Source: a virus
Length of the DNA stretch: 48,621 nucleotides
Reading direction: 5' to 3' (one strand)
Virus record (IMG/VR): IMGVR_UViG_3300040801_000306
Span: 1-48,621 of that record
This document shows, piece by piece, positions 1-48,326 of the stretch (its first letter is position 1; every line of letters starts with the position of its first letter). Made by a program: the position numbers and the translations under genes. The notes beneath the pieces were generated by a model, which saw only the letters and a list, made by a program, of their open reading frames with translations, had not been told where the DNA came from and did not search any database.

Positions 1-378
1 ATGATTGAACATCCAGAGGAATATAATCCAGAGGTAGGTACATATGACCCAAACGGTGTTGACCAACACTCACCCGGCGCAAAGGTGGATGGAGGTAAGA
101 TTCAGCCAGAACTCATCTTCCGAGGATTTAGTAGAGCTTTGCGAGAGGTTGCTGAAGTTGGCACGTATGGAGCTAATAAATACACGAGGGACGGATGGGA
201 ACAAGTACCTGAGGCTATCCGAAGATACTCTGATGCATTTCACCGTCACCAGCTACAGAGGTATGCAGGAGAGGAATGTGATGCTGAATCTAAGCTACGA
301 CACCTAGCCCATGAAGCATGGAACATCCTAGCTGTATTGGAACTGACACTACGAGAGGAAGAGAATGCTAATAGATGA
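1..378 (+). CDS. dATP/dGTP pyrophosphohydrolase-like protein (DUF5664 type)
   Basis: This 125-residue protein matches the pattern of the phage dATP/dGTP diphosphohydrolase N-terminal family (all-alpha, MazG-like fold), which is thought to act on free nucleotides. The conserved block begins KVDGGKIQPELI, continues through GANKYTRDGWEQ, and ends with SKLRHLAHEAWNILAVLEL, whose H/E residues fit the metal-binding helices. It overlaps the nrdA start by 14 bases and is itself overlapped (ATGA) by the MazG-like gene that runs in across the window ends, so it sits in a nucleotide-pool operon with NrdA/NrdB. The ATG at base 1 is the first base of the window; the closure of the ends makes it a genuine start. 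The family is assigned from memory of motifs. Confidence 0.75.
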   Translation: MIEHPEEYNPEVGTYDPNGVDQHSPGAKVDGGKIQPELIFRGFSRALREVAEVGTYGANKYTRDGWEQVPEAIRRYSDAFHRHQLQRYAGEECDAESKLRHLAHEAWNILAVLELTLREEENANR

Positions 379-2188
379 ATCCTTAACAGACAACCTTACG
401 GATTTTAGTAAAGCTACATTAACAGAGAGGTATGTGTATGAGGGGGAGAGTATTCAGGAGGCATTCGCAAGGGCAGCTACAGCGTTCTCGGACACGGACT
501 CAATGGCACAGCGAGTCTACGGGTACGTCTCAAGACAGTGGCTTAGCCTTGCCTCTCCGATTCTCTCCAATGCGCCAGAAAGGATCGAATGGGCGCACGA
601 AGACGAAGATTGGGACATAAACTTTGAGCCAGAGAAGTATGGCAAGGCTCGTGGTCTCCCTATCTCTTGTTTCCTGAACTACGTACCAGACTCAAGGGAG
701 GGTTTAGGTGAACATTATGTCGAGAATATTTGGCTCGCTTCTGCTGGGGGTGGTATCGGTGGGTACTGGGGTCATGTCCGTTCTAGCGGTACAAAGACAT
801 CCAATGGCTCTGCTTCTACTGGCAGTGTCCCTTTTATGCATGTGGTTGACAGTCAGATGCTGGCGTTCAATCAAGGTGTAACCAGACGAGGAAGCTATGC
901 AATCTGGACAGATATCGGACATCCAGAGATTTTGGAAGTCCTTGAAATCAGAAAGCCCACGGGTGGCGACGTTAATCGCAAGTGTCTCAATCTTCATCAT
1001 GGGATCGTTATTCCTGATAAGTTTATGCGCCTCATTGTTGGTGCTGTTAATAACCCCAATGCTAATACTGACTGGGAACTAAAAGACCCACACACAGGTA
1101 AGGTTGTTGAGACTGTAGATGCACGAATGCTGTGGGAAGTGATCCACCGTAGTCGTATGGAGACTGGTGAACCTTTCGTTATGTTCAAGGATACAGTGAA
1201 CGCTGACCTCCCTGAAGCACTGAAAGAGAAAGGACTGATTGTACACCACTCCAACCTCTGTAGTGAGATTACGCTACCTACTGCTGATGACCGTACTGCT
1301 GTATGTTGTCTCAGTAGTTTGAACTTGGAGAAGTGGGATGAATGGAAAGATGACGAGAACTTCATCTATGATGTTGTTCGATTCCTTGACAATGTACTTG
1401 AGTACTTTATTATTAATGCACCCGATGGGATGGAACGAGCAGTACGATCTGCTAAAGCTGAACGCTCAATCGGTTTGGGAGCACTGGGTTGGCACTATCT
1501 CCTCCAGTCTAAGAACATTCCGTTCGAGAACCCAATGGCTGTGGGTCTTAACAGAAAGATATTCAAGCATATTAAAGATCGAGCTTCCGAAGCTACTGAA
1601 CTACTTGCTCAGGAAAGGGGAGAACCTAGCGACCTTAGTGGTAGTGGTGTCCGTAATGCTCACCTTATCGCTATCGCTCCTAACGCTTCAAGCAGCATCA
1701 TTCTGGGTACTTCACCATCTGTTGAGCCAGTTGTAGCCAATGTCTTCACACACAAGACCCTCAGCGGTTCGTATCCCGTCAGGAATAAGCATCTGGATAG
1801 AATTATCAGGGAGCGACATCCCGACGAAGATGTGGAACCAATATGGAAGGACATACTTCTTCACGAAGGATCAGTCCAGCATGTTGACTTCCTTGACGAT
1901 TGGGAAAAAGAGGTATTTAGGACTGCGTATGAAATCGACCAGAGATGGATTGTCGATCACGCAGCGGATAGACAGCCTTATGTATGCCAAGCTCAGTCCA
2001 TCAATCTATTCCTCCCTCCCGAAACCCACATCTCGATACCACATATACTGGTATTACGAGCATGGGAGAAAGGGCTTAAGACGTTATATTACCAACGTAC
2101 TACAGCGAAGAGGAGGGCTGAGAAGATTAGCCAGAAGGTGGAAAGAATGCACCTAGAACAAGAGGAGTGTTTATCATGTCAGGCTTAA
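365..2188 (+). CDS. nrdA: Ribonucleotide reductase class I, large subunit
   Basis: Reduces ribonucleoside diphosphates to deoxy forms for phage DNA synthesis. Visible catalytic features: Cys102 in LPISCFLNY, the NLCSEI active-site loop (Asn297, Cys299, Glu301), a partner cysteine at 314/315, a C-terminal Tyr575-Tyr576 pair on the expected radical-transfer path, and a redox tail CLSC (Cys602, Cys605). At 607 residues it is much shorter than E. coli NrdA (about 760), and no N-terminal ATP-cone precedes the catalytic barrel, so dATP feedback through that domain is absent. The start codon lies inside the upstream gene and the stop overlaps nrdB by 13 bases, indicating translational coupling. Confidence 0.95.
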   Translation: MLIDESLTDNLTDFSKATLTERYVYEGESIQEAFARAATAFSDTDSMAQRVYGYVSRQWLSLASPILSNAPERIEWAHEDEDWDINFEPEKYGKARGLPISCFLNYVPDSREGLGEHYVENIWLASAGGGIGGYWGHVRSSGTKTSNGSASTGSVPFMHVVDSQMLAFNQGVTRRGSYAIWTDIGHPEILEVLEIRKPTGGDVNRKCLNLHHGIVIPDKFMRLIVGAVNNPNANTDWELKDPHTGKVVETVDARMLWEVIHRSRMETGEPFVMFKDTVNADLPEALKEKGLIVHHSNLCSEITLPTADDRTAVCCLSSLNLEKWDEWKDDENFIYDVVRFLDNVLEYFIINAPDGMERAVRSAKAERSIGLGALGWHYLLQSKNIPFENPMAVGLNRKIFKHIKDRASEATELLAQERGEPSDLSGSGVRNAHLIAIAPNASSSIILGTSPSVEPVVANVFTHKTLSGSYPVRNKHLDRIIRERHPDEDVEPIWKDILLHEGSVQHVDFLDDWEKEVFRTAYEIDQRWIVDHAADRQPYVCQAQSINLFLPPETHISIPHILVLRAWEKGLKTLYYQRTTAKRRAEKISQKVERMHLEQEECLSCQA

Positions 2189-3156
2189 TGGGTACTCGTG
2201 AGTACTACAAACCCTTTGATTATGATTGGGCCTTTGAGTTTTACAAGGCTCAACAGGATTCTCATTGGGGCCCCAGAGAGATAGCTCTGCATGAAGATGT
2301 AAGAGACTGGAAGAATGCTGGCAAGGAGGAACGGAACCTGATCACTCAGCTCTTCCGTTTCTTCACTCAAGGTGATGTGGATGTGGCAGCAGGATACTAC
2401 GATAAGTTTATCCCGCTATTCCAGAAGCCTGAACTTCGTATGATGATGGGTGCTTTCGCTAATATGGAGAGCATCCATCAGGAAGCTTACTCACTACTAC
2501 TAGACACCATTGGTATGCCAGAGGTAGAGTATCAAGCTTTTTACAAGTATGAAGAGATGGCTGCTAAGCACGACTACATCTACCAGTTTGAAACTGAGCA
2601 GACAGAAGCTAATAAACACTTTACGAAGAAAGTGGCTAAAGCACTAGCTGTCTACCCTGCATTTACTGAGGGTCTACAACTCTTTTCAAGCTTTGCTATC
2701 CTCCTGAACTTCAGTAGGTTTGGCAAGTATAAGGGTATGAGTCAGATCGTAACATGGTCTGTGAGAGATGAGTCCCTCCATGTAGAAGGTATGCTTAAAC
2801 TCTTCAGAGCTTTCATTCAAGAAAATAAGGAAGTATGGACAGATGACTTCAAGAAAGAAATCTACGACATCGCTCGTGAAATGGTATCTCTGGAGGATGC
2901 ATTCATTGATCTGGTGTTTGAGCTTGGTGGCGTCGAAGGTCTGGAGCCTGACGAAGTTAAGTCATACATCAGGTACATCGGTGACCGTAGACTGCTTCAG
3001 CTTGGGCTCAAGCCAAACTGGGGAATCAAGGATAATCCTCTCCCTTGGCTTGACGAAATACTAAATGGAGTAGAACACAGTAACTTCTTTGAAACCCGTG
3101 CAACTGAATATAGCAAAGCCTCACTAGTAGGCGATTGGAGTGAAATATGGAACTAA
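2176..3156 (+). CDS. nrdB: Ribonucleotide reductase class I, small (radical) subunit
   Basis: Ferritin-like beta subunit that makes the tyrosyl radical used by NrdA. With the start at 2176 (326 residues) the six metal ligands can be read as Asp67, Glu98, His101, Glu165, Glu199 and His202, and the radical tyrosine as Tyr105 in ESIHQEAY, so a classical di-metal/tyrosyl enzyme is expected. The open frame extends to a GTG at 2167, but the ATG at 2176 is preferred because a GAGG ribosome-binding site at 2162-2165 is well spaced from it and the product then begins MSGLMGTREYY. It overlaps nrdA upstream and the next small gene downstream. Confidence 0.95.
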   Translation: MSGLMGTREYYKPFDYDWAFEFYKAQQDSHWGPREIALHEDVRDWKNAGKEERNLITQLFRFFTQGDVDVAAGYYDKFIPLFQKPELRMMMGAFANMESIHQEAYSLLLDTIGMPEVEYQAFYKYEEMAAKHDYIYQFETEQTEANKHFTKKVAKALAVYPAFTEGLQLFSSFAILLNFSRFGKYKGMSQIVTWSVRDESLHVEGMLKLFRAFIQENKEVWTDDFKKEIYDIAREMVSLEDAFIDLVFELGGVEGLEPDEVKSYIRYIGDRRLLQLGLKPNWGIKDNPLPWLDEILNGVEHSNFFETRATEYSKASLVGDWSEIWN

Positions 3157-32616: not shown

Positions 32617-32829
32617 ATGGAAACAAAAGTTCGTAAGAAATATCCTGCGAACAGCAATCATGCGACCAAGGTTCACCGCACTCTCAGGGATGTGATTGAT
32701 GAGGAAAATATCATCTGTCCCAACTGTCGTGGTCTTGGTACTGTTGTTGTTTGTGGGGCTTATCCTCGACCGAATGAGGATAAAGAAATGCCCTGCCCTG
32801 TGTGTGGTGGGGAAGGTGTATTAAACTAA
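32617..32829 (+). CDS. Small zinc-finger protein (DnaJ-type cysteine pairs)
   Basis: A 70-residue protein whose C-terminal half has two CxxCxGxG-type units, CPNCRGLGTV and CPVCGGEG, the form of the DnaJ central zinc-finger repeat. One zinc ion is expected. Phages often carry such small fingers; protein-protein contact or regulation is likely, but no specific role is known. Confidence 0.7.
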   Translation: METKVRKKYPANSNHATKVHRTLRDVIDEENIICPNCRGLGTVVVCGAYPRPNEDKEMPCPVCGGEGVLN

Positions 32830-32983: not shown

Positions 32984-33928
32984 ATGGCAATTGTTGTTGG
33001 TGTTATTAACTCGAAAGGTCGACTGGTTCATGGTCACAGTGGCTCATGCTTCTCTGGTCTGCCCGGTGCATTGGTACAGGTGGTTAATGATCGTGGTATG
33101 AGTGGCTATAAATGTGTTCGACAGTATCTTCATCACAAAGCCCTGAGTAGTGACCTCAAGAAGCGAGAGGCTAATGCTTATCTTACTGGATTTGGCTATG
33201 CCAATGATGACAAGGTTTTTATGCTTGCTTGTCAGTCGGAACAGGACGTTCAGACTACTTTCGAGATGTTTGAGATGATGGGGTTTGATACCCTGATTGA
33301 GAAGTATAACCGAGAGAAGATTATTTCTCAAGGGTATTTCGATTGGAAGCGTGATATTCCTATGCAGGTATTGGTTGGAGTTGGAAGTTACTTCAGGTTC
33401 TACTCTGACTATCCTCATGCCCCAAAGACTTATCGTAAGCTGATAAAGGATGAACTGCCAAAACTTGAAAAAGCTGTTGGCCCTCGTGCTTACAGTCAGC
33501 ACAAAGATCACTATGACAGGGCTTTCAAACGATTTTTCTCAGTCCTAGCAACCTACCTCAGCAGTGATGGTAATGCTAAGAATGAATACAAAATTCACTC
33601 GGTTGGTTGTCATTCACCTTTCGGTCAGAACTTGGTAAAAGGAGAGAAAGCGTTCAAGAGATTGAATCAGTGGAGGAGTAACATGGATAATCTCCCAACT
33701 ATTGTTGAGCTATTGAAGCGTAAGGTTCGTGGAGTCTCTTATCGTGGACGTAACTTCTTTTTCTCAGGGGTTGATGATTCCTATGGGTTCAGTACTGCTT
33801 CCAGTCCTAAGCTAAAGGCTATAGGTATTGTGGAGAACGCTGAGAACTCCTATGCTACAACTAAGTTCAAGTTCATGGAATCTTACAGAGATTCTGATTT
33901 GGCCCCATTCTTGGAGTTGGCACGATGA
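32984..33928 (+). CDS. Unknown protein at the head of the amidoligase cluster
   Basis: A 314-residue protein I do not recognise. It begins MAIVVGVINSKGRLVHGHSG and appears soluble and mixed alpha-beta, with a Lys/Tyr-rich middle (YDRAFKRFFSVLATYLSSDG). It follows an A/T-rich gap, so it is probably the first gene of a transcription unit. It ends in an ATGA overlap with the COOH-NH2 ligase gene. That coupling suggests it belongs to the same system, as substrate, substrate carrier or regulator. No catalytic motif could be identified. Confidence 0.75.
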   Translation: MAIVVGVINSKGRLVHGHSGSCFSGLPGALVQVVNDRGMSGYKCVRQYLHHKALSSDLKKREANAYLTGFGYANDDKVFMLACQSEQDVQTTFEMFEMMGFDTLIEKYNREKIISQGYFDWKRDIPMQVLVGVGSYFRFYSDYPHAPKTYRKLIKDELPKLEKAVGPRAYSQHKDHYDRAFKRFFSVLATYLSSDGNAKNEYKIHSVGCHSPFGQNLVKGEKAFKRLNQWRSNMDNLPTIVELLKRKVRGVSYRGRNFFFSGVDDSYGFSTASSPKLKAIGIVENAENSYATTKFKFMESYRDSDLAPFLELAR

Positions 33929-34695
33929 TTACTCTTGGCACAGATACAGAAGTACAGATTCAGGATAAAACTGGTGACCTTATCTCAGCAGTTGGCCTGA
34001 TTGGTGGCAGTAAGGAGAATCCACGTTGGTTCGATGGGTTCAACATTCAGGAGGACAATACAAACGTAGAGTTTGCTATCAATCCTGTCTCTACTGTCGA
34101 TGAATGGGTGTCACTGATTGAGAGTGCTATGAGCAAGGTCTCTGAGGTTCTCGGTGAGCTTGGCTATACACCTCGTATCGAAGCTACTGGTCATTACTCA
34201 GATGAACAGCTCTCGTCTCCTGAGAGTCGTCTGTTTGGCTGTGACCCAGACTTCTCAGCATACACCCTTGACGAAAACGAACCACCCAACCCAGAACAGG
34301 TAGGGAGTCTTCGTTCTGCTGGTGGTCATATCCATGTAGGAGTTGAAGATGTCAATGTTACAGAGCTTGTCAAATGGATGGATGTTTATCTCGGTTTGCC
34401 TTCTCTTCTCATGGATGATGATCATGTTCGTCGTCAACTTTATGGCAAAGCTGGTGCTCATCGTGTTAAGCCATATGGTGTTGAGTATCGAGCGCTGTCT
34501 AACTTCTGGATTAAAGACCGTAAGTCTATGGTATGGGCATACGAACAGACCATGAAGGCAGTTAAGATGGCTGGTGAATCTACCATCGAACAGCTTCCAG
34601 ACTGGACTCGTATCCCAATGTCAATCGACACCTATGACCGTAACACGGCAGAGGATGTCCTCAACTGGCTGAATAAGGAGGGATACAATGCCTAG
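33925..34695 (+). CDS. COOH-NH2 ligase type 2 (phage amidoligase, glutamine-synthetase fold)
   Basis: A 256-residue ATP-dependent amide-bond-forming enzyme. Family marks are GTDTEVQ (residues 5-11, metal-binding Glu), DNTNVEFAINP (44-54), GCDPDFSAY (105-113), the strong SAGGHIHVG strand (131-139), and YGVEYRALSNFW (184-195) with metal and phosphate ligands Glu187 and Arg189. It matches the phiEco32-type COOH-NH2 ligase family. The family is predicted to join a carboxylate to an amine through an acyl phosphate. The substrate is unknown. It is overlapped by the next gene by eight bases. Confidence 0.85.
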   Translation: MITLGTDTEVQIQDKTGDLISAVGLIGGSKENPRWFDGFNIQEDNTNVEFAINPVSTVDEWVSLIESAMSKVSEVLGELGYTPRIEATGHYSDEQLSSPESRLFGCDPDFSAYTLDENEPPNPEQVGSLRSAGGHIHVGVEDVNVTELVKWMDVYLGLPSLLMDDDHVRRQLYGKAGAHRVKPYGVEYRALSNFWIKDRKSMVWAYEQTMKAVKMAGESTIEQLPDWTRIPMSIDTYDRNTAEDVLNWLNKEGYNA

Positions 34696-35395
34696 AAACA
34701 ATTGGTCTAGTGATGCACCAAATCACTACAACAATACCTTGTGCCTGTTTGAAGATGATCTGTATCAGGTAAATAATGTCCTGTTAAGTTTGGCTCAAGA
34801 GGAGGATACTAATGAGTATGAACGGATGAGAACTATGTCATACCCAGAGGCTCTCCGAACTTTCAGGTATGACATCTCACCCTTTGGTCATCGTAATGGT
34901 GGACGAGTAAGGGATGCATCTTTTGATGACCTTCGATTTGTATTCCCTGAATCTCATCTGGTAAACATCCAGCACAATGGATTTTCTCGGGTAGATTTTG
35001 TATCTCGGTATGTCATGAAGCAATATCGTAGAGGTATGCGTCCTGATACACTACAGACCATCACCTGTAATCGTCCACTAGCTAACAAGCTACAGCAGAA
35101 CCCTACCACAATGGGGTGTCCATCAGAGGCTGTGATCAGGGAGTTCTTCTTGTCTCAATTCTATACAGTTGAGCAGGCATTAACTCTACTTGATAATCAG
35201 CCCGGAACTGTTGCTATCAGTGACTCGATCTGGTTGGGTACATCAGCCAAACCTGATGAGATATTGGTAGGCTATCAGCAGTATGCAGTAGGGACTCTAA
35301 ATGCAGGGGCTTCAACAGTAGCTCTTGCTGAGGAGGCTGGTGAGCTTCGTCAACACATTCAAGAGGAGACTGAGTTCAATGTCACTATCGCTTAG
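34688..35395 (+). CDS. Unknown protein between the two amidoligases
   Basis: A 235-residue protein without recognised domain. The order is a short polar N-terminus, a helix (YERMRTMSYPEALRTFRYDI), a central segment with SHLVNIQHNGFSRVDFVSRYV, and an acidic C-terminal helix (ALAEEAGELRQHIQEETEF). It overlaps the ligase genes on both sides (8 and 17 bases), the tightest coupling in the cluster, so a stoichiometric partner or the peptide target of the ligases is plausible. This is inference from arrangement. Confidence 0.75.
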   Translation: MPRNNWSSDAPNHYNNTLCLFEDDLYQVNNVLLSLAQEEDTNEYERMRTMSYPEALRTFRYDISPFGHRNGGRVRDASFDDLRFVFPESHLVNIQHNGFSRVDFVSRYVMKQYRRGMRPDTLQTITCNRPLANKLQQNPTTMGCPSEAVIREFFLSQFYTVEQALTLLDNQPGTVAISDSIWLGTSAKPDEILVGYQQYAVGTLNAGASTVALAEEAGELRQHIQEETEFNVTIA

Positions 35396-36359
35396 TGAAG
35401 TAATCGGCTTTAAGAAAGAAGTCAGGTCAGCACCTATTGACCCTAACCTACCACTTCAAGATGAATATATTGGGGTTGAGGTTGAGGTTGAGGGTGCTGC
35501 ATATATCAGCGTCAGTCAGACTTATTGGAAGACGGTTCGGGATGGCAGTCTAAGAGATGAGGGTAAGGAGTTTGTATTCAAAGAACCTCTCTTCAATGGT
35601 GATATCGGTGCTGCTCTTGATGAATTGCAGGAAGCTTTCGATCAACATGCTCCCCGTCTATCTGATCGTTGTAGTGTCCATGTACATATTAACGTATCGA
35701 ACATGAGTACTGTACAGCTTCACCGTATGCTGCTCTTATATCTGATCTTTGAGCGTACCATTGTACGTTATCATTCAGATCGTGAAGATAATATCTTTGC
35801 GGTTCCATTCTATAAAGCTCCGTTCTATGTTCATCAGATTGATGCGCTGTATCGTGAAGATTACGATGACATAGCTGACCTGTTCTCGAACATGAACAAG
35901 TATCAGGCTCTCAACCTGAGAACTGTACGTGAGTATGGTAGCCTTGAGTTCCGACATATGGGAGGTACTGCTGACACTCAGGCTATCTATGAGTGGATTA
36001 AGATCATCATGATGCTGAAGAAGTATGTGATGGAGAACGACTTCAACCCGACTGCCCTACTGCATAATATGTCAGGCATGGGGCCGGAGAACTTCCTCAT
36101 TGATGTGTTTGGTCGTGAGTTGTCAGAGGTCTTGACTAATGAGCACGTTGAACGTGACATCATCAAGGGTGTACGTTTAGCCCAGCTTAGTTCAATCAAT
36201 ACAGACCTAGCAGGAGCAAGCACTCGGTTACTACGTCGTAGGTTTACTACTGGTGTTCTTGAGCGTATTAATCGTGCTATTGGCATAGACGAACCAATTC
36301 GTAATGAGTTTGAAGGTATCAATTTTGATGTGTATGGCCCAGTAGAAGGAGATTTGTAG
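35379..36359 (+). CDS. Amidoligase (Amidoligase_2 type)
   Basis: A 326-residue second glutamine-synthetase-fold ligase. The frame opens at 35325 but the ATG at 35379, with GAGGAG nine bases upstream, is preferred. Family marks: GVEVEVEG (32-39), WKTVRDGSLRD plus GKEFVF (50-67), DRCSVHVHINVSNM (96-109), and ALNLRTVREYGSLEFRHMGG (177-196) with the Glu and Arg expected for metal and phosphate contacts. It should activate a carboxylate with ATP and couple it to an amine, a different substrate step from the first ligase. The GATase gene begins one base after its stop. Confidence 0.85.
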   Translation: MSLSLSEVIGFKKEVRSAPIDPNLPLQDEYIGVEVEVEGAAYISVSQTYWKTVRDGSLRDEGKEFVFKEPLFNGDIGAALDELQEAFDQHAPRLSDRCSVHVHINVSNMSTVQLHRMLLLYLIFERTIVRYHSDREDNIFAVPFYKAPFYVHQIDALYREDYDDIADLFSNMNKYQALNLRTVREYGSLEFRHMGGTADTQAIYEWIKIIMMLKKYVMENDFNPTALLHNMSGMGPENFLIDVFGRELSEVLTNEHVERDIIKGVRLAQLSSINTDLAGASTRLLRRRFTTGVLERINRAIGIDEPIRNEFEGINFDVYGPVEGDL

Positions 36360-36360
36360 T

Positions 36361-37773
36361 ATGTGTGGTATTGTAACATTAATGAGTAGTGCGAAGACTC
36401 GTATATCTATTGATCATAAGAAGTTTCTTATGCAAGGACTAATGATTGATACTTTACGAGGCGATCATTCAACAGGTCTGGCTTTTGTGGACAAGGATGG
36501 TATTGCTGAGACGTACAAGAAAGCTGTACCCGGCTATGACTTTGTTCACTTGAAGACTCCCTCCCGAGTAATCAATAACATTACTGACTTTAATTATATC
36601 ATTGGTCACAATCGTTATGCTACGAAGGGTGCAATCAACTCCCTTAATGCTCACCCATTCCAGCATGGTGCTATCACTGGTGTCCATAATGGTAGTCTGC
36701 GTGAGTATCATAGTCTTGCACCACAGCAGAACTTCGCCACTGACTCAGAGCATGTGATATGGGCTTTGAATCAGGCTGATGATGTTGGTGACGTAATCAA
36801 GAAACTTAAGGGTGCCTTTACTCTGGTATGGCATGATGAACAGGACAATACGATTCATATGATTCGTAATGAAGATCGTCCCTTTCATCTTGCATACATG
36901 GAGAAAGAGGACACAATACTTGGTATCTCTGAGGTTGAGATGTTGAACCTCCTCATTGCTCGTAACAAGATCAAGATAGAGAAGATCGTTGAGCTACCTG
37001 TAGGTGAAGAGTGGGTATTCAGTCAAGATGATCTGAAGAACCCGGCCAAGATTGAAAGGGAGTTCTGGACACCCCCAAAGTTCGACAGCTCCTCACAGCG
37101 ACGAGGGGCGGGATCAGGAAGTTATACAAGTCCTTCTCAGAAGGTACACCCACCAGCAGACTCAAGGCAGAAAAGCGATTGGGAACGTCAGGTAGACGCG
37201 GAACTAAGGATTCTAGGTCTAAAGCGAGACGAGGAAGTTGAGTTCATCATTCAGGATTATAGCATCTATCCGGGTACTGGTAATGGCGGATATATGAAGT
37301 ATGGTGAACTGACAGGATACATGGTCGATGCTCCTTACATGGAGGTTCAAGTAACTGGTCTTGGTGAAGAGACATATAATCGACTTACTGGCTGGAGTGC
37401 TAAGTCACGAGTCATCCGAGCTATTCGTAGTGGTCGTAAGCAACGTATTGTTCTTACAGCTAAGGATATAGACAACGTATCGGAGGAGGAAGATATCCCT
37501 TTTGATCAAATTGCTAAAGCCAACAAAGTAGAAAAGGAGAAGGAGGAGACTGATGGCAATGTAAAAAAGTCTGTAACGGGTGGGCACAACGTCCTGTACC
37601 TAGACTCTTCAGGCAGGTGCTACACTAAGAAACAGGCAGTGGAGCTTCTAAAACATGGGTGTGGTATGTGTAGTAGAGACCTTGAACCGTCAGAAATGAC
37701 TAGCCTTTCTTGGGCAGGTGATTCACCAATCTGTCCTGAGTGTGCTGAACAAATGGAAAAACTTGACAAATAG
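36361..37773 (+). CDS. Class II glutamine amidotransferase with C-terminal zinc finger
   Basis: A 470-residue protein. The N-terminal Ntn-hydrolase domain starts MCGIV, so Cys2 becomes the nucleophile after Met removal. RGDHSTG (33-39), GHNRYATKG (82-90, Arg85), HNGSL (109-113, Asn110) and TDSE (127-130, Asp128) are the glutamine-binding and oxyanion residues. A long middle region follows, then a four-cysteine finger (Cys434, 437, 458, 461). There is no synthase or isomerase domain as in GlmS or PurF, so ammonia or a glutamyl group is presumably passed to the neighbouring ligases. Confidence 0.9.
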   Translation: MCGIVTLMSSAKTRISIDHKKFLMQGLMIDTLRGDHSTGLAFVDKDGIAETYKKAVPGYDFVHLKTPSRVINNITDFNYIIGHNRYATKGAINSLNAHPFQHGAITGVHNGSLREYHSLAPQQNFATDSEHVIWALNQADDVGDVIKKLKGAFTLVWHDEQDNTIHMIRNEDRPFHLAYMEKEDTILGISEVEMLNLLIARNKIKIEKIVELPVGEEWVFSQDDLKNPAKIEREFWTPPKFDSSSQRRGAGSGSYTSPSQKVHPPADSRQKSDWERQVDAELRILGLKRDEEVEFIIQDYSIYPGTGNGGYMKYGELTGYMVDAPYMEVQVTGLGEETYNRLTGWSAKSRVIRAIRSGRKQRIVLTAKDIDNVSEEEDIPFDQIAKANKVEKEKEETDGNVKKSVTGGHNVLYLDSSGRCYTKKQAVELLKHGCGMCSRDLEPSEMTSLSWAGDSPICPECAEQMEKLDK

Positions 37774-37784
37774 GAGTATTAAAA

Positions 37785-38741
37785 ATGCGTGTTGTATTTT
37801 CCCCATATAAAGGTGGTTTAGGTGGTTTGCGTAGGCTTCGTGCTGAACTTAATGCTCAAGGTGTACGTACCAAGGTACTGAAACCAGCGAAATCTCAGCA
37901 TGTGCATCAGGATGGTGATGTGTATATGAACTGGGGGAACTCTAGACCCCCACTTAATGGTAGTATTCCATCGGCTTTACAGATCAATCGTTCTGAATCT
38001 ATTAGTTATGTAACTAATAAATCTTCAGCCTTCGATCACTTTCACGCAAACAGTGTACCAATCCCTGATTTTTATCGTCAGGTAATTACTTGTGTTTCTG
38101 AGAATAACCTACATACTGGAGATAACCAAGATAAGGTGTTTGTTCTTCGACACAAACTGACTGGTCACAGTGCTGAAGGTGTTGAGATTATTAATGGCTC
38201 TGAACTGTGGCAACGTCATCGTGAGTTTGAGAATGTACGTCTCGTTACAGATTATATTCCTAAGAAGCATGAGTATCGTCTGCATGTCTTTCGTGGCAAA
38301 GTACTGTTAATACAACAGAAGAAGCGTCGTACAGATGTACCTGATGAAGATGTAGATTGGAAGATACGTAACTATGACAATGGCTTCATCTACGCCATTG
38401 ACGATATTGTTACTCCTGATCAAAAGGTAATAGACGCTGCTATAAGTGCCTGTAATGCTGTTGCTCTTGATTATGGTGCAGTAGATGTCATCTGGAATCA
38501 GAAACGTGAGAAGGCTTATGTCTTGGAGATTAATACTGCACCGGGAATTGTGAGTGATACCTTAGCGGGAGCCTTAGCTTCAGCCATTGTATCACGAGCA
38601 ACCGTACTTGATAGCCATATGAGTTCGAGTATGCATAGCAAGATCAGGCAGCATCAAGTAGCTAGGGCTGCAAGTGCAACAAGACCTACAACACCAAGGT
38701 ATACTACAAGACCTACTACGGGGTATCGTATCCAACGATAA
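37785..38741 (+). CDS. ATP-grasp ligase (RimK-like)
   Basis: A 318-residue ATP-grasp enzyme. Visible are the glycine-rich ATP loop HKLTGHSAEGVEI (about 123-135), the conserved KHEYRLHVFRG strand (161-171) and the metal-binding end YVLEINTAPG (245-254; Glu248, Asn250) preceded by AVDVIW. This layout is that of RimK-like ligases, which add amino acids to peptides or proteins through an acyl phosphate. The C-terminal 50 residues are Arg/Thr-rich and likely disordered. It follows the GATase by 11 bases. Confidence 0.88.
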   Translation: MRVVFSPYKGGLGGLRRLRAELNAQGVRTKVLKPAKSQHVHQDGDVYMNWGNSRPPLNGSIPSALQINRSESISYVTNKSSAFDHFHANSVPIPDFYRQVITCVSENNLHTGDNQDKVFVLRHKLTGHSAEGVEIINGSELWQRHREFENVRLVTDYIPKKHEYRLHVFRGKVLLIQQKKRRTDVPDEDVDWKIRNYDNGFIYAIDDIVTPDQKVIDAAISACNAVALDYGAVDVIWNQKREKAYVLEINTAPGIVSDTLAGALASAIVSRATVLDSHMSSSMHSKIRQHQVARAASATRPTTPRYTTRPTTGYRIQR

Positions 38742-38750
38742 GGAGATATC

Positions 38751-39161
38751 ATGGTAACATTGAAAACAAAGGTAGCTGTGTATGGCAGTCTACGGAGGGA
38801 CTTCCATAACCACAGAATCATTGAGCATTCAAAATTCTTGGGTATGACACGAACAGACCCAGAGTATACAATGCTCTCACTTGGTTCCTTCCCAGCAGTA
38901 ATTGAGGGAGGGGATACCTCAATCCTTGTTGAGATATACGAGGTTGACCCTGAAACATTCGCCAGTCTGGATATCCTTGAAGGGTACTCACCTGAAAAGA
39001 AAAGTGCATTCTACTCACGTAAGTTGGTAGAGTTCCCAGAGTTTGGGGCTTGTTGGATGTACTATATTGATGGTGGTGCTGAAGGATTCTCTAATACTCG
39101 TGTACCTTCAGGTGATTGGGGTACACATAAGCAAGAGGTAAGATATGGCATCAGGAAATGA
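38751..39161 (+). CDS. Gamma-glutamylcyclotransferase-like (AIG2/GGCT fold) protein
   Basis: A 136-residue protein with the cyclotransferase signature VAVYGSLRR (8-16), the internal GSFPAVIEGG (45-54), and LDILEGY (73-79), whose Glu77 matches the catalytic acid/base of the family. Such enzymes release 5-oxoproline from gamma-glutamyl amides. In a ligase cluster it may trim, edit or recycle gamma-glutamyl products. It overlaps the primase-helicase start by 17 bases, linking the cluster to the replication genes. Confidence 0.82.
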   Translation: MVTLKTKVAVYGSLRRDFHNHRIIEHSKFLGMTRTDPEYTMLSLGSFPAVIEGGDTSILVEIYEVDPETFASLDILEGYSPEKKSAFYSRKLVEFPEFGACWMYYIDGGAEGFSNTRVPSGDWGTHKQEVRYGIRK

Positions 39162-40863
39162 TGATAGTAGTAAAGCCATTGCATACATGCTCCCCTGCAC
39201 TCAGAAAGATTGCGGTAGTTCTGATGCAGTAGTAGCATATGATGATGGTCATCACCACTGTTTCTCATGTGGTAAACACTATCCAGCCGGAGTCTATGAA
39301 GGAGGTGAACCTGTAGTGGAAAAAGCTGTACCCAAGGTAGAGGCCAGCCACACCATAGGTTTGTCAGACGTATCCAAGCTTAAGTCCTCAGCTCTAATCA
39401 CTCGTGGAATTGATGCTGATATTGCAGAAAAATATGGGGTTAAGGTTGAGTTCGATACTACTAATGGTCAGCCATTGAAGTATTACCTACCGTATTACCG
39501 AGATGGTGATCTGACAGGCTACAAGGTGCGTCCTGTTGACCGTAAGGAGTTCTTTGCTATCGGTAGTACACGACAGCCTGAACTGTTTGGTCAGCAACTA
39601 GCAGGAGATGGGGGTAGACTCCTGATCATCACAGAAGGCGAGTTCGATGCTATGGCATCCGCCCAAATGCTGAAAAGTGCTGGGAAAAATTATAAGGTTG
39701 TTAGTCTACCACAAGGGGCGAACTGTAATGCCTTGCGTAATCACCTTGAGTGGTTGGAAAAGTTTGATACCATTGTACTGAACTTTGACAATGACAAGAA
39801 AGGTAAGGAAGCTCGTGACGAAGCTGCGGAACTTTTTACTCCCGGCAAGGTCAAATTTATGGAGCTACCTGAGAAGTTCAAAGATGCTAATGAGATGCTA
39901 CAGGCTGGTGGTAAACCTGCCCAGTATCTACAGGCTATCTTTAACGCAAAGGTCTACCGTCCTGATGGTGTAGTGAGTCTGGCTGATGCATGGGATACTA
40001 TGTTTGAGTCGGACAGTCAGGAGTCTCTACCTTATCCGTGGGCTGGCTTGAATGAGCTAACCTATGGTATCCGTAAGCGAGAGATTGTAACCCTAACCTC
40101 TGGCTCTGGTATGGGTAAGTCAGCAGTAACTCGTGAGCTTTCACACTGGCTGCTCAAGCAGACTGAGGATAACATAGGGGTACTGGCCCTTGAAGAGTCT
40201 GTTAGTAGGACAGCGTGGGGTATTGTATCAGTTGAAGCAAACCTCCCACTATCAATCCGAGAGGAACGTAAAGGTGTTGGAACTGAGGACGTTAAGAAGT
40301 GGTTCGATGCTACTCTGGGAACGGGTCGTATCTTCACCCTTGACCACTTTGGTTCGACCTCTGAGGATTCTCTTCTCAGCCGGGTAAGGTATATGATAAA
40401 GGGGCTTGGCTGTCAATGGGTCATCCTTGATCATCTATCTATTGTAGTCTCAGCTATGGACGAAGGTGGTGATGAACGTCGCACCATCGACTCGATCATG
40501 ACCAAGCTACGACAGTTGGTAGAGGAGACAGGGGCAGGGCTTATCCTCGTAAGTCACCTGAAGCGTACCTCAGGAGATAAGGGCCATGAGCAAGGGCATG
40601 AGGTCAGCTTAGCCCATCTCAGGGGCTCACAGGCCATAGCACAGCTCTCTGATATGGTCATTGCGCTGGAACGTAACCAGCAGGCAACTAACAAGAAGGA
40701 GGCCAACCTGACTAAGATCAGGGTACTGAAGAATAGGTATGCTGGATTGTTGGGTATCGCTACCCATTTGTTTTATAACCGTGATACAGGACGACTTGAG
40801 GAGGTTGAAGATGTGGATGAATTTCTTGGCATTGCTCCAGAAGAAACAGAGGGGAACTTCTAA
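39145..40863 (+). CDS. DNA primase-helicase (T7 gp4-like)
   Basis: A 572-residue replicative protein that should both prime and unwind. The N-terminal zinc motif is Cys18, Cys23, Cys39, Cys42. The TOPRIM core shows LLIITEGEFDAMA and IVLNFDNDKKG. The DnaB-type helicase has Walker A GSGMGKS (320-326), VLALEES (H1a), WVILDHLSIV (Walker B region), LVSHLKR and a GSQAIAQLSDMVIALERNQ motif. The length is as in T7 gp4 (566). The stop overlaps the next gene by one base. Confidence 0.93.
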   Translation: MASGNDDSSKAIAYMLPCTQKDCGSSDAVVAYDDGHHHCFSCGKHYPAGVYEGGEPVVEKAVPKVEASHTIGLSDVSKLKSSALITRGIDADIAEKYGVKVEFDTTNGQPLKYYLPYYRDGDLTGYKVRPVDRKEFFAIGSTRQPELFGQQLAGDGGRLLIITEGEFDAMASAQMLKSAGKNYKVVSLPQGANCNALRNHLEWLEKFDTIVLNFDNDKKGKEARDEAAELFTPGKVKFMELPEKFKDANEMLQAGGKPAQYLQAIFNAKVYRPDGVVSLADAWDTMFESDSQESLPYPWAGLNELTYGIRKREIVTLTSGSGMGKSAVTRELSHWLLKQTEDNIGVLALEESVSRTAWGIVSVEANLPLSIREERKGVGTEDVKKWFDATLGTGRIFTLDHFGSTSEDSLLSRVRYMIKGLGCQWVILDHLSIVVSAMDEGGDERRTIDSIMTKLRQLVEETGAGLILVSHLKRTSGDKGHEQGHEVSLAHLRGSQAIAQLSDMVIALERNQQATNKKEANLTKIRVLKNRYAGLLGIATHLFYNRDTGRLEEVEDVDEFLGIAPEETEGNF

Positions 40864-41297
40864 TGAAATGGATAGCATTATTACTGGCTCTATTCAGTAC
40901 GACAGCGGTTGCTGAGCATAGGTTAGACATTACGCTTGGCTCGTATCATTTTAGTGAGAAGCAGGAGGGCGAATGGAATGAAGTCAACCCCGGACTTATC
41001 TACACCTACTCGCCAGCAGAAGGAATCGGCTTCAGTGTGGGACGGTATCGTAATAGCTTCAGCAACTATAGCAATCTTGCTGGGCTGCGTTTGGAGCTAC
41101 CTGATTATCGTAGTCATACCTTCGGTATTCTTCTAGGTGGGGTTACAGGTTATCAGTTTGATATGAATGGGGCTCCGGCCCCTGTATCTCCTCTGGCAGC
41201 ACCTTACGTTACTCTGTACCAACGAGTCAACGTATCACTTCAATATGCTGGTAGGGAATCCTCTGTTGGTATATCAGCAAGACTAGGAGAATGGTAA
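40863..41297 (+). CDS. Exported protein with beta-barrel character
   Basis: A 144-residue product with a clear signal peptide: MKWIALLLALFSTTAVA, cleavage expected after Ala17 (AVA-EH). The mature part has alternating hydrophobic/polar strands (HRLDITLGSYHF, GLIYTYSPAEGIGFSVGRYR, TFGILLGGVTGYQF, VTLYQRVNVSLQYAG) resembling a small outer-membrane barrel and ends in ...RLGEW. It sits between primase-helicase and polymerase genes, an unusual place for an exported protein. Modification of the host surface or exclusion of other phages is a reasonable guess. Confidence 0.72.
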   Translation: MKWIALLLALFSTTAVAEHRLDITLGSYHFSEKQEGEWNEVNPGLIYTYSPAEGIGFSVGRYRNSFSNYSNLAGLRLELPDYRSHTFGILLGGVTGYQFDMNGAPAPVSPLAAPYVTLYQRVNVSLQYAGRESSVGISARLGEW

Positions 41298-44219: not shown

Positions 44220-44963
44220 ATGATTAATAATGAGTTTGTAATTAAATATGAAAACTTAATACGTTCTAATATCTATAGTATGAATATTAGAGATAAGGAT
44301 ACTGTAGATAATTTGTTCGCTGATGTAATAATCAAACTACTTGAGAATGTAGATAAGTTCGACCCAGAACAGGGTGCTGCATCTACATGGGTAGTAACCG
44401 TTACACGACGAAAGGTCATGGATTATATTCGTGACATTAAACGATCTGAGGATGTAATGGATAGTCCGAGGGTGTCTGTCGATGATAAGGTTCCGGGTTC
44501 TACTGTAGCCATTGTCGATAACATCCCAGATGAACAACCTTCTGAAGCATATAAGCAACGAAGGTTGGAAGAGTTTCTGTTCTTGATCTCTGACCTACCA
44601 AGGGTCTGGCAGCAAATATTAAAGCTGCGGCTGGTGTATGGTCACTCTTTGAAAGAGATATCTGATATGCTTGACCTTAAGTATAAGGCAGTAGACAACG
44701 CCCATACTAAGGCTATCAAGCGTCTCAAGAACAGAGTAAGGGTTGAACGTGAACCACGGTGGCATTATGGGCAGGGAGTGACTCTTCAGGATATGTATAA
44801 TCCGCTTCCCCCAATCTACAAGTTCCCGTTCAAATTAAGAGTAGTCGAGGGCAAGACTTGGCAACAAGTCCAGCAATTGATTGACCTTCCGATTCATGTT
44901 CTTGAGGCTCGGGTCAATGTTGCCCGTGATATGATCTTCAAGAAATGGAATGTAGAGGTATGA
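44220..44963 (+). CDS. Phage sigma factor, ECF-like, with repeated region-4-like segment
   Basis: A 247-residue sigma70-family protein. Region 2 covers about residues 8-75 (NLFADVIIKLLENVDKFDPE, then STWVVTVTRRKVMDYIRDI). Region 4 covers about 118-172 (LPRVWQQILKLRLVYGHSLK and DLKYKAVDNAHTKAIKRL). Regions 1, 3 and a full region 2.4 extension are absent, as in ECF factors. Residues 206-242 align without gaps to 136-172 and look like a second region-4-type helix-turn-helix. It should redirect host RNA polymerase to phage genes, most likely the leftward late block, since the phage has no polymerase of its own. Confidence 0.85.
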   Translation: MINNEFVIKYENLIRSNIYSMNIRDKDTVDNLFADVIIKLLENVDKFDPEQGAASTWVVTVTRRKVMDYIRDIKRSEDVMDSPRVSVDDKVPGSTVAIVDNIPDEQPSEAYKQRRLEEFLFLISDLPRVWQQILKLRLVYGHSLKEISDMLDLKYKAVDNAHTKAIKRLKNRVRVEREPRWHYGQGVTLQDMYNPLPPIYKFPFKLRVVEGKTWQQVQQLIDLPIHVLEARVNVARDMIFKKWNVEV

Positions 44964-47109: not shown

Positions 47110-47527
47110 GAAAACTCCACCCTGTCCTGAGTACCCAGAGTGGACTACAGCTAAATACTTTTCACTAATTCGTACTGGTCTAAGGGGAGCCTTCTCACGT
47201 TGGCCCCCTAAGCACGAAGCTCTTAAAGCAGTTAAAGAGGTCGTACCAGTAATGGATGGTGAGGAGCAAGCACGTTATAAGACTGGACAACGAGCAGGCC
47301 AGCTAAAGTACACAACGAGATACCGTTGCGCTGCCTGTGACAACTTGTTTCCAATAAAGGAAGTCGAGACAGACCACATAGTTCCGGCTGGTTCGTTAAA
47401 GACTTATGACGACGTAGTACCATTTATTCAACGAGTCCTGTGCCCAGTAGAGGGTCTACAGGTTCTGTGTAAAACTTGTCACAGAGAGAAAACTAATGCC
47501 GAAAGACGTAAAAACAAAACCACGTAA
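47102..47527 (+). CDS. HNH endonuclease
   Basis: A 141-residue nuclease starting with TTG at 47102. Two zinc cysteine pairs frame the HNH core: CAACDNLFP, then EVETDHIVPAG (catalytic His), and LQVLCKTCHREKTNAE (second His, CxxC). The order matches phage enzymes that replace the T7 gp3 Holliday-junction resolvase in related genomes. Its 3' end overlaps the next gene by 32 bases. Confidence 0.85.
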   Translation: MAKKTPPCPEYPEWTTAKYFSLIRTGLRGAFSRWPPKHEALKAVKEVVPVMDGEEQARYKTGQRAGQLKYTTRYRCAACDNLFPIKEVETDHIVPAGSLKTYDDVVPFIQRVLCPVEGLQVLCKTCHREKTNAERRKNKTT

Positions 47528-48326
47528 TACATTGGGGCGTAAGACCATTGAGCACATTGTAGTACCAGATGCTCAGGTCACACCTGATACATCCACGGAG
47601 CACCTACGCCATGCTGGAGAATATATTGCTACACATCAGCCAGATGTCCTTGTCTGCATTGGTGACTTCGCTGATATGCATAGCCTTAGTTCTTATGATC
47701 GTGGTAAGAAGGGCTTCGAGGGGCGACGTTACAGCGATGACGTTAAGGCTGCAAAGCGAGCGATGTCGGTACTCCTTGCTCCCATGCAAGAGTTACAGAA
47801 ACGACAACGTAAGAATAAGCAGAGGGTATACAAACCACGGATGATCATGACCCTTGGGAATCATGAGAACCGTATTAACAGGGCAGTTAGCAATGATGCG
47901 ATACTCGACGGTACGATATCAACTGACGATCTCGGATACAAAGAAGCAGGTTGGGAGGTATACGATTTCCTCGAAGCAATTGAAGTTGATGGGGTTACCT
48001 ACTCCCACTTCTTCCCGCGATCTGGCAATGGGCGTGTTTTGCAGTCTACTCGTGGGGCACCTACAGCAAGAACTCAGGGTCAACGAGAGATGCGCTCTTG
48101 TACTTCTGGACATCTTCAAGGGTTGGATTTCGATGTACACCAGCTCGGGAATCGACGGATTTACAATATCATTGCCGGATCATGTTATACCCATGAAGAG
48201 GATTACCTCACTCCTCAAGGCACGCAATATTGGAGAGGAATTATACATAAGTTCGACGTTGGTGAGGGGATGTACGATCCACTGTTCGTATCCCTTGACT
48301 ACCTAAAACGGAGGTATGGTAAATGA
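47496..48326 (+). CDS. Calcineurin-like metallophosphoesterase
   Basis: A 276-residue phosphoesterase. Motifs in order: VVPDAQV (Asp25, with Gln27 where His is usual), GDFADMHS (Asp57, Asp60), GNHENR (121-126) and GHLQG (206 onward). The substrate is unknown; the neighbourhood (exonuclease, HNH, MazG, reductase) suggests DNA end or nucleotide processing. It is coupled to the MazG-like gene by an ATGA overlap. Confidence 0.85.
   Translation: MPKDVKTKPRNTLGRKTIEHIVVPDAQVTPDTSTEHLRHAGEYIATHQPDVLVCIGDFADMHSLSSYDRGKKGFEGRRYSDDVKAAKRAMSVLLAPMQELQKRQRKNKQRVYKPRMIMTLGNHENRINRAVSNDAILDGTISTDDLGYKEAGWEVYDFLEAIEVDGVTYSHFFPRSGNGRVLQSTRGAPTARTQGQREMRSCTSGHLQGLDFDVHQLGNRRIYNIIAGSCYTHEEDYLTPQGTQYWRGIIHKFDVGEGMYDPLFVSLDYLKRRYGK

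Follow-up and report, generated by a model that had tools for sequence, protein, structure and literature searches.

What does a phage make with a compact block of amide-bond-forming enzymes carried directly in front of its replication genes? We addressed this question in IMG/VR record IMGVR_UViG_3300040801_000306, whose whole 48,621-nucleotide (nt) stretch is referred to here as the window. Seven genes at 32984-39161 form the block and are designated, in order, x, L, u, A, G, R and c; h denotes a C26 protein of relatives. By its protein families and gene order, the set belongs to a cassette already known from phages (phiEco32, LUZ24/PaP3, PA11, CW02, RIO-1). This phiEco32/LUZ24-type amide-ligase cassette, on balance, probably encodes a cytosolic pathway in which a gamma-glutamyl product (isopeptide or amide) is built and edited, ahead of phage replication or while it proceeds.

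The original prediction for this DNA had described seven consecutive genes that overlap or nearly abut, and open reading frame (ORF) calling confirmed it. All seven ORFs lie on the + strand and each overlaps or abuts the next, with overlaps of 4, 8 and 17 nt and spacings otherwise of 1, 11 and 9 nt. The block is probably translationally coupled. The mechanical ORF start of A is a TTG at 35325, but relatives align from the ATG at 35379, which is therefore most likely the start. The last gene, c, overlaps the ORF of a DnaB-type primase/helicase (start 39145) that directly follows, in agreement with the predicted position in front of replication genes.

Pfam and PHROG profiles identified L as a COOH-NH2 ligase, A as an amidoligase, G as a class II glutamine amidotransferase, R as an ATP-grasp ligase and c as a gamma-glutamylcyclotransferase (GGCT), all as first proposed (scores in Table 1). 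In family alignments, L keeps the invariant D44, E49, H135, H137, R180, K182, E187 and R189, and A keeps the invariant E34, E36, E38, H101, H103, E190 and R192; these alignments contradict the loss of catalytic residues that, according to the original prediction, would refute it. Neither ligase has a PDB sequence match. G has an N-terminal Cys2, NAHPF, HNG and DS motifs that are invariant in the family alignment, and a glutamine pocket, followed by a phage-specific middle region and a zinc-ribbon-like CxxC..CxxC end (window 37600-37773), a C-terminal pattern of a type present in 126 of 197 non-redundant G proteins. R carries EINTAPG and GAVD motifs, and a PDB profile search with it matched RimK and other alpha-L-glutamate ligases; on these similarities R is RimK-like, and we do not class it as RimK. 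All five recognizable enzymes retain their active-site motifs, and the set is complete and probably active. No hydrophobic segment strong enough to span a membrane was found in any of the seven proteins, which are therefore probably cytosolic.

A search of 50,697 phage records gave 309-340 matching records for each of L, A, G and R, every match being below 60% identity, and no DNA-level relative of the block was found in phages. The families occur in phages of Citrobacter, Salinivibrio, Cronobacter, Alcaligenes, Leptolyngbya, Sinorhizobium, Pseudoalteromonas, Pseudomonas, Vibrio and Escherichia, and annotated cassettes in named phages mostly precede a primase/helicase or DNA polymerase. The L profile confirms at least 578 loci in IMG/VR versus only 10 contigs, all metagenome-derived, in the genomes of 84,980 bacterial and archaeal species; the block is therefore essentially viral. 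With more than 300 phage records and more than 570 IMG/VR loci, it ranks among the most widespread blocks of enzymes that are still unexplained in tailed phages.

Its composition was surveyed by unsupervised clustering, without prior labels, of all genes of at least 80 amino acids (aa) in 216 non-redundant related loci; these loci share ancestry, families were defined by our own hidden Markov models (HMMs) and thresholds, and gene calls were mechanical. The commonest families were A (213 loci), R (198), G (192) and L (180), followed by an unlabelled 542-aa family (172), u (170), an unlabelled 606-aa family (154), h (138) and c (72). Other unlabelled families reached 53-69 loci, and x formed two clusters of 49 and 9. 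The 542-aa family is probably the primase/helicase, by size and position, and the 606-aa family probably the DNA polymerase. L-u-A forms a rigid core, with median gaps of -4 and -16 nt (179 and 188 cases). Around it, two orders were found: G-L-u-A-R in Zobellviridae-like loci versus L-u-A-G-R in phiEco32/LUZ24-like loci, the window having the second. The full x-L-u-A-G-R-c pattern was found in 11 non-redundant loci, including the window. Kinship with phiEco32-type sets, and a gene order that recurs in other phages, are thereby both borne out.

The two proteins originally called unknown do lack Pfam matches, but they are not orphans; both belong to recurring cassette families. For u, the PHROG match is weak (phrog_11055, 0.0014). 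A family HMM seeded with positional equivalents scores the window protein at 1.9e-28, a partly circular value given that the window sequence is in the seed. Independent support comes from structure: an AlphaFold (AF2) model with a predicted local distance difference test score (pLDDT) of 81.5 and a predicted template modelling score (pTM) of 0.79 has no fold counterpart in the PDB (best E 0.23), whereas ten proteins of a viral structure library match it (E 1.5e-5 or better) and none beyond. One of these is a 190-aa CW02 protein of the same length as the CW02 u. The family u, confidently modelled, is phage-only and recurs as a cassette component. Its family motif is RxPxRQWxRG, and it has no obvious catalytic motif.

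The first gene product, ORF1, has no Pfam, PHROG or phage match on its own, and no close relative was found by tblastn in phages or by an IMG/VR scan. It occupies the slot of family x, which has about 85 non-redundant members, joins several unnamed PHROGs (phrog_34254, 27195, 38092) and overlaps h (median -4 nt, 58 cases) or L (-4 nt, 17 cases); ORF1 itself overlaps L by 4 nt. An x profile built without ORF1 scores it at 18.5 bits, a value reached by none of 1,853 scored shuffles (best 8.6) and exceeded by one of the 2,246 other ORFs scored, and that one, too, lies in the x slot, ahead of h; the whole-database E value is only 0.03. C22 and R138 of ORF1 align to two invariant x-family columns (Cys, Arg) in three alignments, and H210 aligns with a common x-family His in one alignment and with a gap when aligned to the profile. 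By score and position, ORF1 is a divergent member of a previously unrecognized cassette family. The x model is mediocre (pLDDT 65, pTM 0.66), with no PDB match and no match in a structure search, and the His is uncertain; we therefore only hypothesize that x is perhaps a thiol enzyme.

A further regularity concerns enzymes that cleave gamma-glutamyl bonds. In the commonest cassette, L or G is preceded by h, a protein of class I amidotransferase fold with GICRGxQ, SxHHQ and HPE motifs that belongs to Pfam Peptidase_C26 (1.9e-17). Gamma-glutamyl hydrolases, among them PuuD, are found in this family. Among 113 non-redundant loci that have L, u, A and enough flank, h or c was present in all 113 (62 h only, 25 c only, 26 both, 0 neither), with the proviso that flank limits can hide either gene, as for GAP52, whose GGCT lies ~5 kb downstream of G. 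If h and c were independent, about 14 of the 113 would be expected to lack both (Fisher p 3e-11, kinship ignored). In the window no C26 profile match was found, and c is its only gamma-glutamyl-cleaving enzyme. GGCT matches 127 phage records and C26 matches 60; cassette phages make up most of the matches listed, with exceptions that include Bacillus phages and bacterial contigs. Both families are otherwise rare in phages. Because h or c is present in every one of the 113 loci, R is RimK-like, G is a glutaminase with a glutamine pocket and there are two ligases of glutamine synthetase (GS) fold, the gene content points to gamma-glutamyl chemistry. The family-level statements on x, u and h/c were not found in print; the C26 and GGCT links may stand in Iyer et al. 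2009, outside the literature covered.

Some loci of the survey (numbered L006 and so on) depart from these arrangements. A second architecture without u, c-R-h-L-G-A, occurs at L084:9791-13437 and also in L062, L065, L068, L081, L083 and similar loci; its G is longer (about 610-710 aa), and its amidoligase, of 560-610 aa, has a ~200-aa N-terminal extension. Homology between u and this extension was considered and rejected, none being found by hhalign. Shortly 3' of R, a minority of loci (44 in the cluster) encode a small zinc-ribbon protein that ends in a long, acidic C-terminal tail (e.g. L025:13702-13881, L031:6352-6525 and L052:4680-4886). It is similar in shape to a LysW-like carrier, but this role was rejected, as the C-terminal residue is not conserved and no such protein was seen in the window. 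In three unrelated phages, nicotinate/nicotinamide phosphoribosyltransferase genes lie some kb upstream of the cassette (L006:1-1280, L008:4736-8945, L010:1-1755), and L008 and L010 additionally have a phosphoribosyl pyrophosphate (PRPP) synthetase.

A pathway can be proposed from these components. G would free NH3 and glutamate from glutamine. L and A, as GS-fold ATP ligases, would activate a carboxylate, most likely the glutamate gamma-carboxylate, and join it to NH3 or an amine, and RimK-like R would attach glutamate or another residue. Gamma-glutamyl groups would be stripped or recycled as 5-oxoproline by c, in place of which many relatives have the C26 hydrolase h. Beside h or L, x may act as a thiol enzyme, and u may assist L and A, either as a non-catalytic partner or by binding substrate. 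The early-middle expression guessed for the set would be in line with relatives: the PaP3 equivalents (ORF32-48, numbering matched via PMC3890496 and the PA11 record) are middle-class genes with a peak at 10-30 min (PMC4707531), and the HP1 cassette is expressed immediately (PMC7082346). With x and u placed in the cassette, x possibly a thiol enzyme and h or c in every well-flanked block, the chemistry is narrowed to something directly assayable. A bolder version, which we consider improbable, is a phage-borne gamma-glutamylation system in which L, A and R, fed by G, are writers, c or h are erasers, the new thiol enzyme family x and the new-fold partner or acceptor u are phage-only components, and the target is a specific host or phage macromolecule modified before or during replication.

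Several points weigh against a gamma-glutamyl pathway. RimK-type alpha-L-glutamate ligases are the nearest curated and solved relatives of R, but R falls far under the curated cut-off (RimK family TIGR00768: 4.4e-5, 23 bits versus 143.4 bits); its scores are also below cut-off for Pfam R2K_2 (PF18299; 22.8 versus 26.2 bits) and NF040720 (1.2e-6). The h/c association is not significant after kinship correction, in an underpowered comparison of four supported independent pairs, although on an L+A+R tree both genes change repeatedly (9 changes required for h, 13 for c) and c never changes in the same direction as h in independent pairs. Both h and c could act in a general salvage of glutathione or gamma-glutamyl compounds that has nothing to do with the ligases. 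The suggested role of x is drawn from residue conservation, with a weak model. Finally, no product, substrate or activity was found in the literature covered for any phage version, consistent with the original statement that no product is established.

Within the preferred gamma-glutamyl pathway, the acceptor may be a wall precursor, a protein or a small amine; a cytosolic cell-wall precursor is our single best guess, a tentative one. Gamma-D-Glu linkages exist in wall stems, and the cassette enzymes are predicted to be cytosolic, as wall-precursor enzymes are. Peptidoglycan modification would be one acceptor choice inside that pathway: unusual wall peptide stem linkages, made from cytosolic precursors, would hinder superinfection or reshape the wall. 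This is the prevailing hypothesis in the literature, in which the set has been termed a peptidoglycan modification cassette and superinfection exclusion suggested (PMC5498523, PMC6256558, PMC11945000, PMC10580990), in papers that cite Iyer et al. and Hardies et al. The product is indeed unestablished, as the original prediction stated, but the set is not obscure: several papers describe it with this hypothesis (PMC5498523, PMC10580990). We regard wall modification as possible but doubtful: no muropeptide data were found in the literature, the 216-locus clustering shows no recurring gene for wall targeting or transport beside the cassette, and a PagP-like envelope gene of the window is absent from every other examined locus.

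Alternatively, R and the GS-fold ligases may put glutamate or amide-linked residues on a host or phage protein, with c or h removing them, as modelled by RimK on ribosomal protein S6 or PafA with Pup. The RimK-like character of R would fit, R2K-clade phage enzymes have been predicted to modify host proteins (PMC4431377), and u, kept between the ligases with no obvious catalytic motif, could be the acceptor. The family alignment, however, shows neither a conserved C-terminal tail nor a conserved acceptor residue in u, and no other target recurs, so protein modification appears somewhat unlikely. A small-molecule product, such as a gamma-glutamyl amine, an amidated metabolite or a peptide, derived from polyamines, glutathione or amino acids of the host and serving as a resource or in counter-defence, is also unlikely in our estimate. 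GGCT acts on gamma-glutamyl amines and glutathione, the C26 family of h includes PuuD of the polyamine pathway, and nicotinamide adenine dinucleotide (NAD)-related genes lie near some cassettes; yet no Puu-type oxidase or dehydrogenase family visibly recurs beside the cassette (PuuB and PuuC not searched by profile), and the non-enzyme-like families x and u are hard to fit into simple metabolism.

A graspetide-like ribosomally synthesized and post-translationally modified peptide (RiPP), with ATP-grasp and ligases cyclizing a small phage-encoded precursor, is very improbable. R shows some similarity to the ATP-grasp maturase MvdD, weak and under the cut-off (E 0.01), but gaps of at most 11 nt leave no precursor gene in the window block, and around cassettes no short ORF family is widely recurrent, the zinc-ribbon protein being confined to a minority of loci. 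That unrelated auxiliary genes merely lie side by side with no common pathway is as good as refuted, for although phage early regions often gather unrelated small genes, the L-u-A adjacency is conserved and unsupervised clustering returns the same families, in two gene orders, as the commonest of all 216 loci, beside replication genes.

The window also encodes a class Ia ribonucleotide reductase, a major head protein, a terminase, a DNA polymerase and a sigma factor (Table 1). The terminase shares 56-59% identity with its counterparts in Methylophilales phages MEP401/402, Lentibacter and Celeribacter phages, Vibrio phage ICP2 and a Manatee Spring contig. The PagP-like gene was considered as a cassette partner and rejected, on the absence of homologues noted above. 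A promoter scan gave no excess versus shuffles.

Table 1. Positions in the window of the cassette genes and of neighboring features, with profile matches
Feature	Position	Strand	Length (aa)	Description	Profile matches
x (ORF1)	32984..33928	+	314	Divergent member of a cassette-associated family; putative thiol enzyme	
L	33925..34695	+	256	Phage COOH-NH2 ligase type 2, GS-fold	PF14395 3.3e-12, 46.6 bits (cut-off 25); phrog_3815 2.3e-68
u	34688..35395	+	235	Conserved, non-catalytic-looking, between both ligases; phage-only fold	
A	35379..36359	+	326 (from ATG)	Amidoligase_2 family ligase, GS-fold	PF12224 5.3e-9, 36.8 bits (cut-off 22); phrog_7469 4.7e-57
G	36361..37773	+	470	Class II glutamine amidotransferase	PF13522 3.7e-12 (above cut-off), also GATase_7/GATase_4; phrog_4736 7.7e-88
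R	37785..38741	+	318	ATP-grasp ligase, nearest RimK/MptN-type alpha-L-glutamate ligases	phrog_2599 1.4e-57
c	38751..39161	+	136	Gamma-glutamylcyclotransferase (GGCT/AIG2)	PF06094 2.4e-19, 70.5 bits (cut-off 22.8); phrog_2520 8.1e-24
Primase/helicase	39145..40863	+		Toprim + DnaB-type, directly after the cassette	phrog_239 2.3e-181; PF03796 1.4e-20
Ribonucleotide reductase	365-3156			Large and small subunits	phrog_84, phrog_86
DnaJ-type zinc protein	32617-32829		70	CxxCxGxG zinc motif; just upstream of the cassette	
PagP-like protein	40863-41297		144	Lipid A acylation family; signal-peptide-like start; directly after the primase/helicase	phrog_3600 4.7e-20; no Pfam match
Sigma-factor-like protein	44220-44963			3' of the DNA polymerase	phrog_1740
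Metallophosphoesterase	47496-48326				phrog_221

Compared with known systems, the "peptidoglycan modification cassette" of RIO-1/HP1 resembles that of the window in having GGCT, glutamine amidotransferase, two amidoligases and ATP-grasp (PMC5498523), but GGCT and amidotransferase come first there, and the wall function is hypothetical there too. In Zobellviridae (PA11, CW02, CVT22, O4), the same families stand before a primase/helicase, sigma factor and DNA polymerase, although with G ahead of L and, in most cases, with the C26 hydrolase h. Phages of the phiEco32 type/Grimontviridae (ECBP2, GAP52, Vp_R1, Salmonella phage 7-11) share L-u-A-G-R with x upstream and have GGCT, but their R and G are longer, extra ORFs lie between G and R, and GGCT is some kb downstream. 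The LUZ24-like cassette (UFV-P2 ORF20-29; PaP3, LUZ24) differs in an HNH endonuclease and small ORFs that are interposed, and in distant proteins (phage matches below 60% identity). It nevertheless has the same order as the window, with COOH-NH2 ligase, a conserved ~186-aa protein, amidoligase, glutamine amidotransferase (GATase) II, ATP-grasp, AIG2/GGCT and primase/helicase, and in UFV-P2 a 287-aa uncharacterized protein lies directly upstream, in the x slot (PMC3890496).

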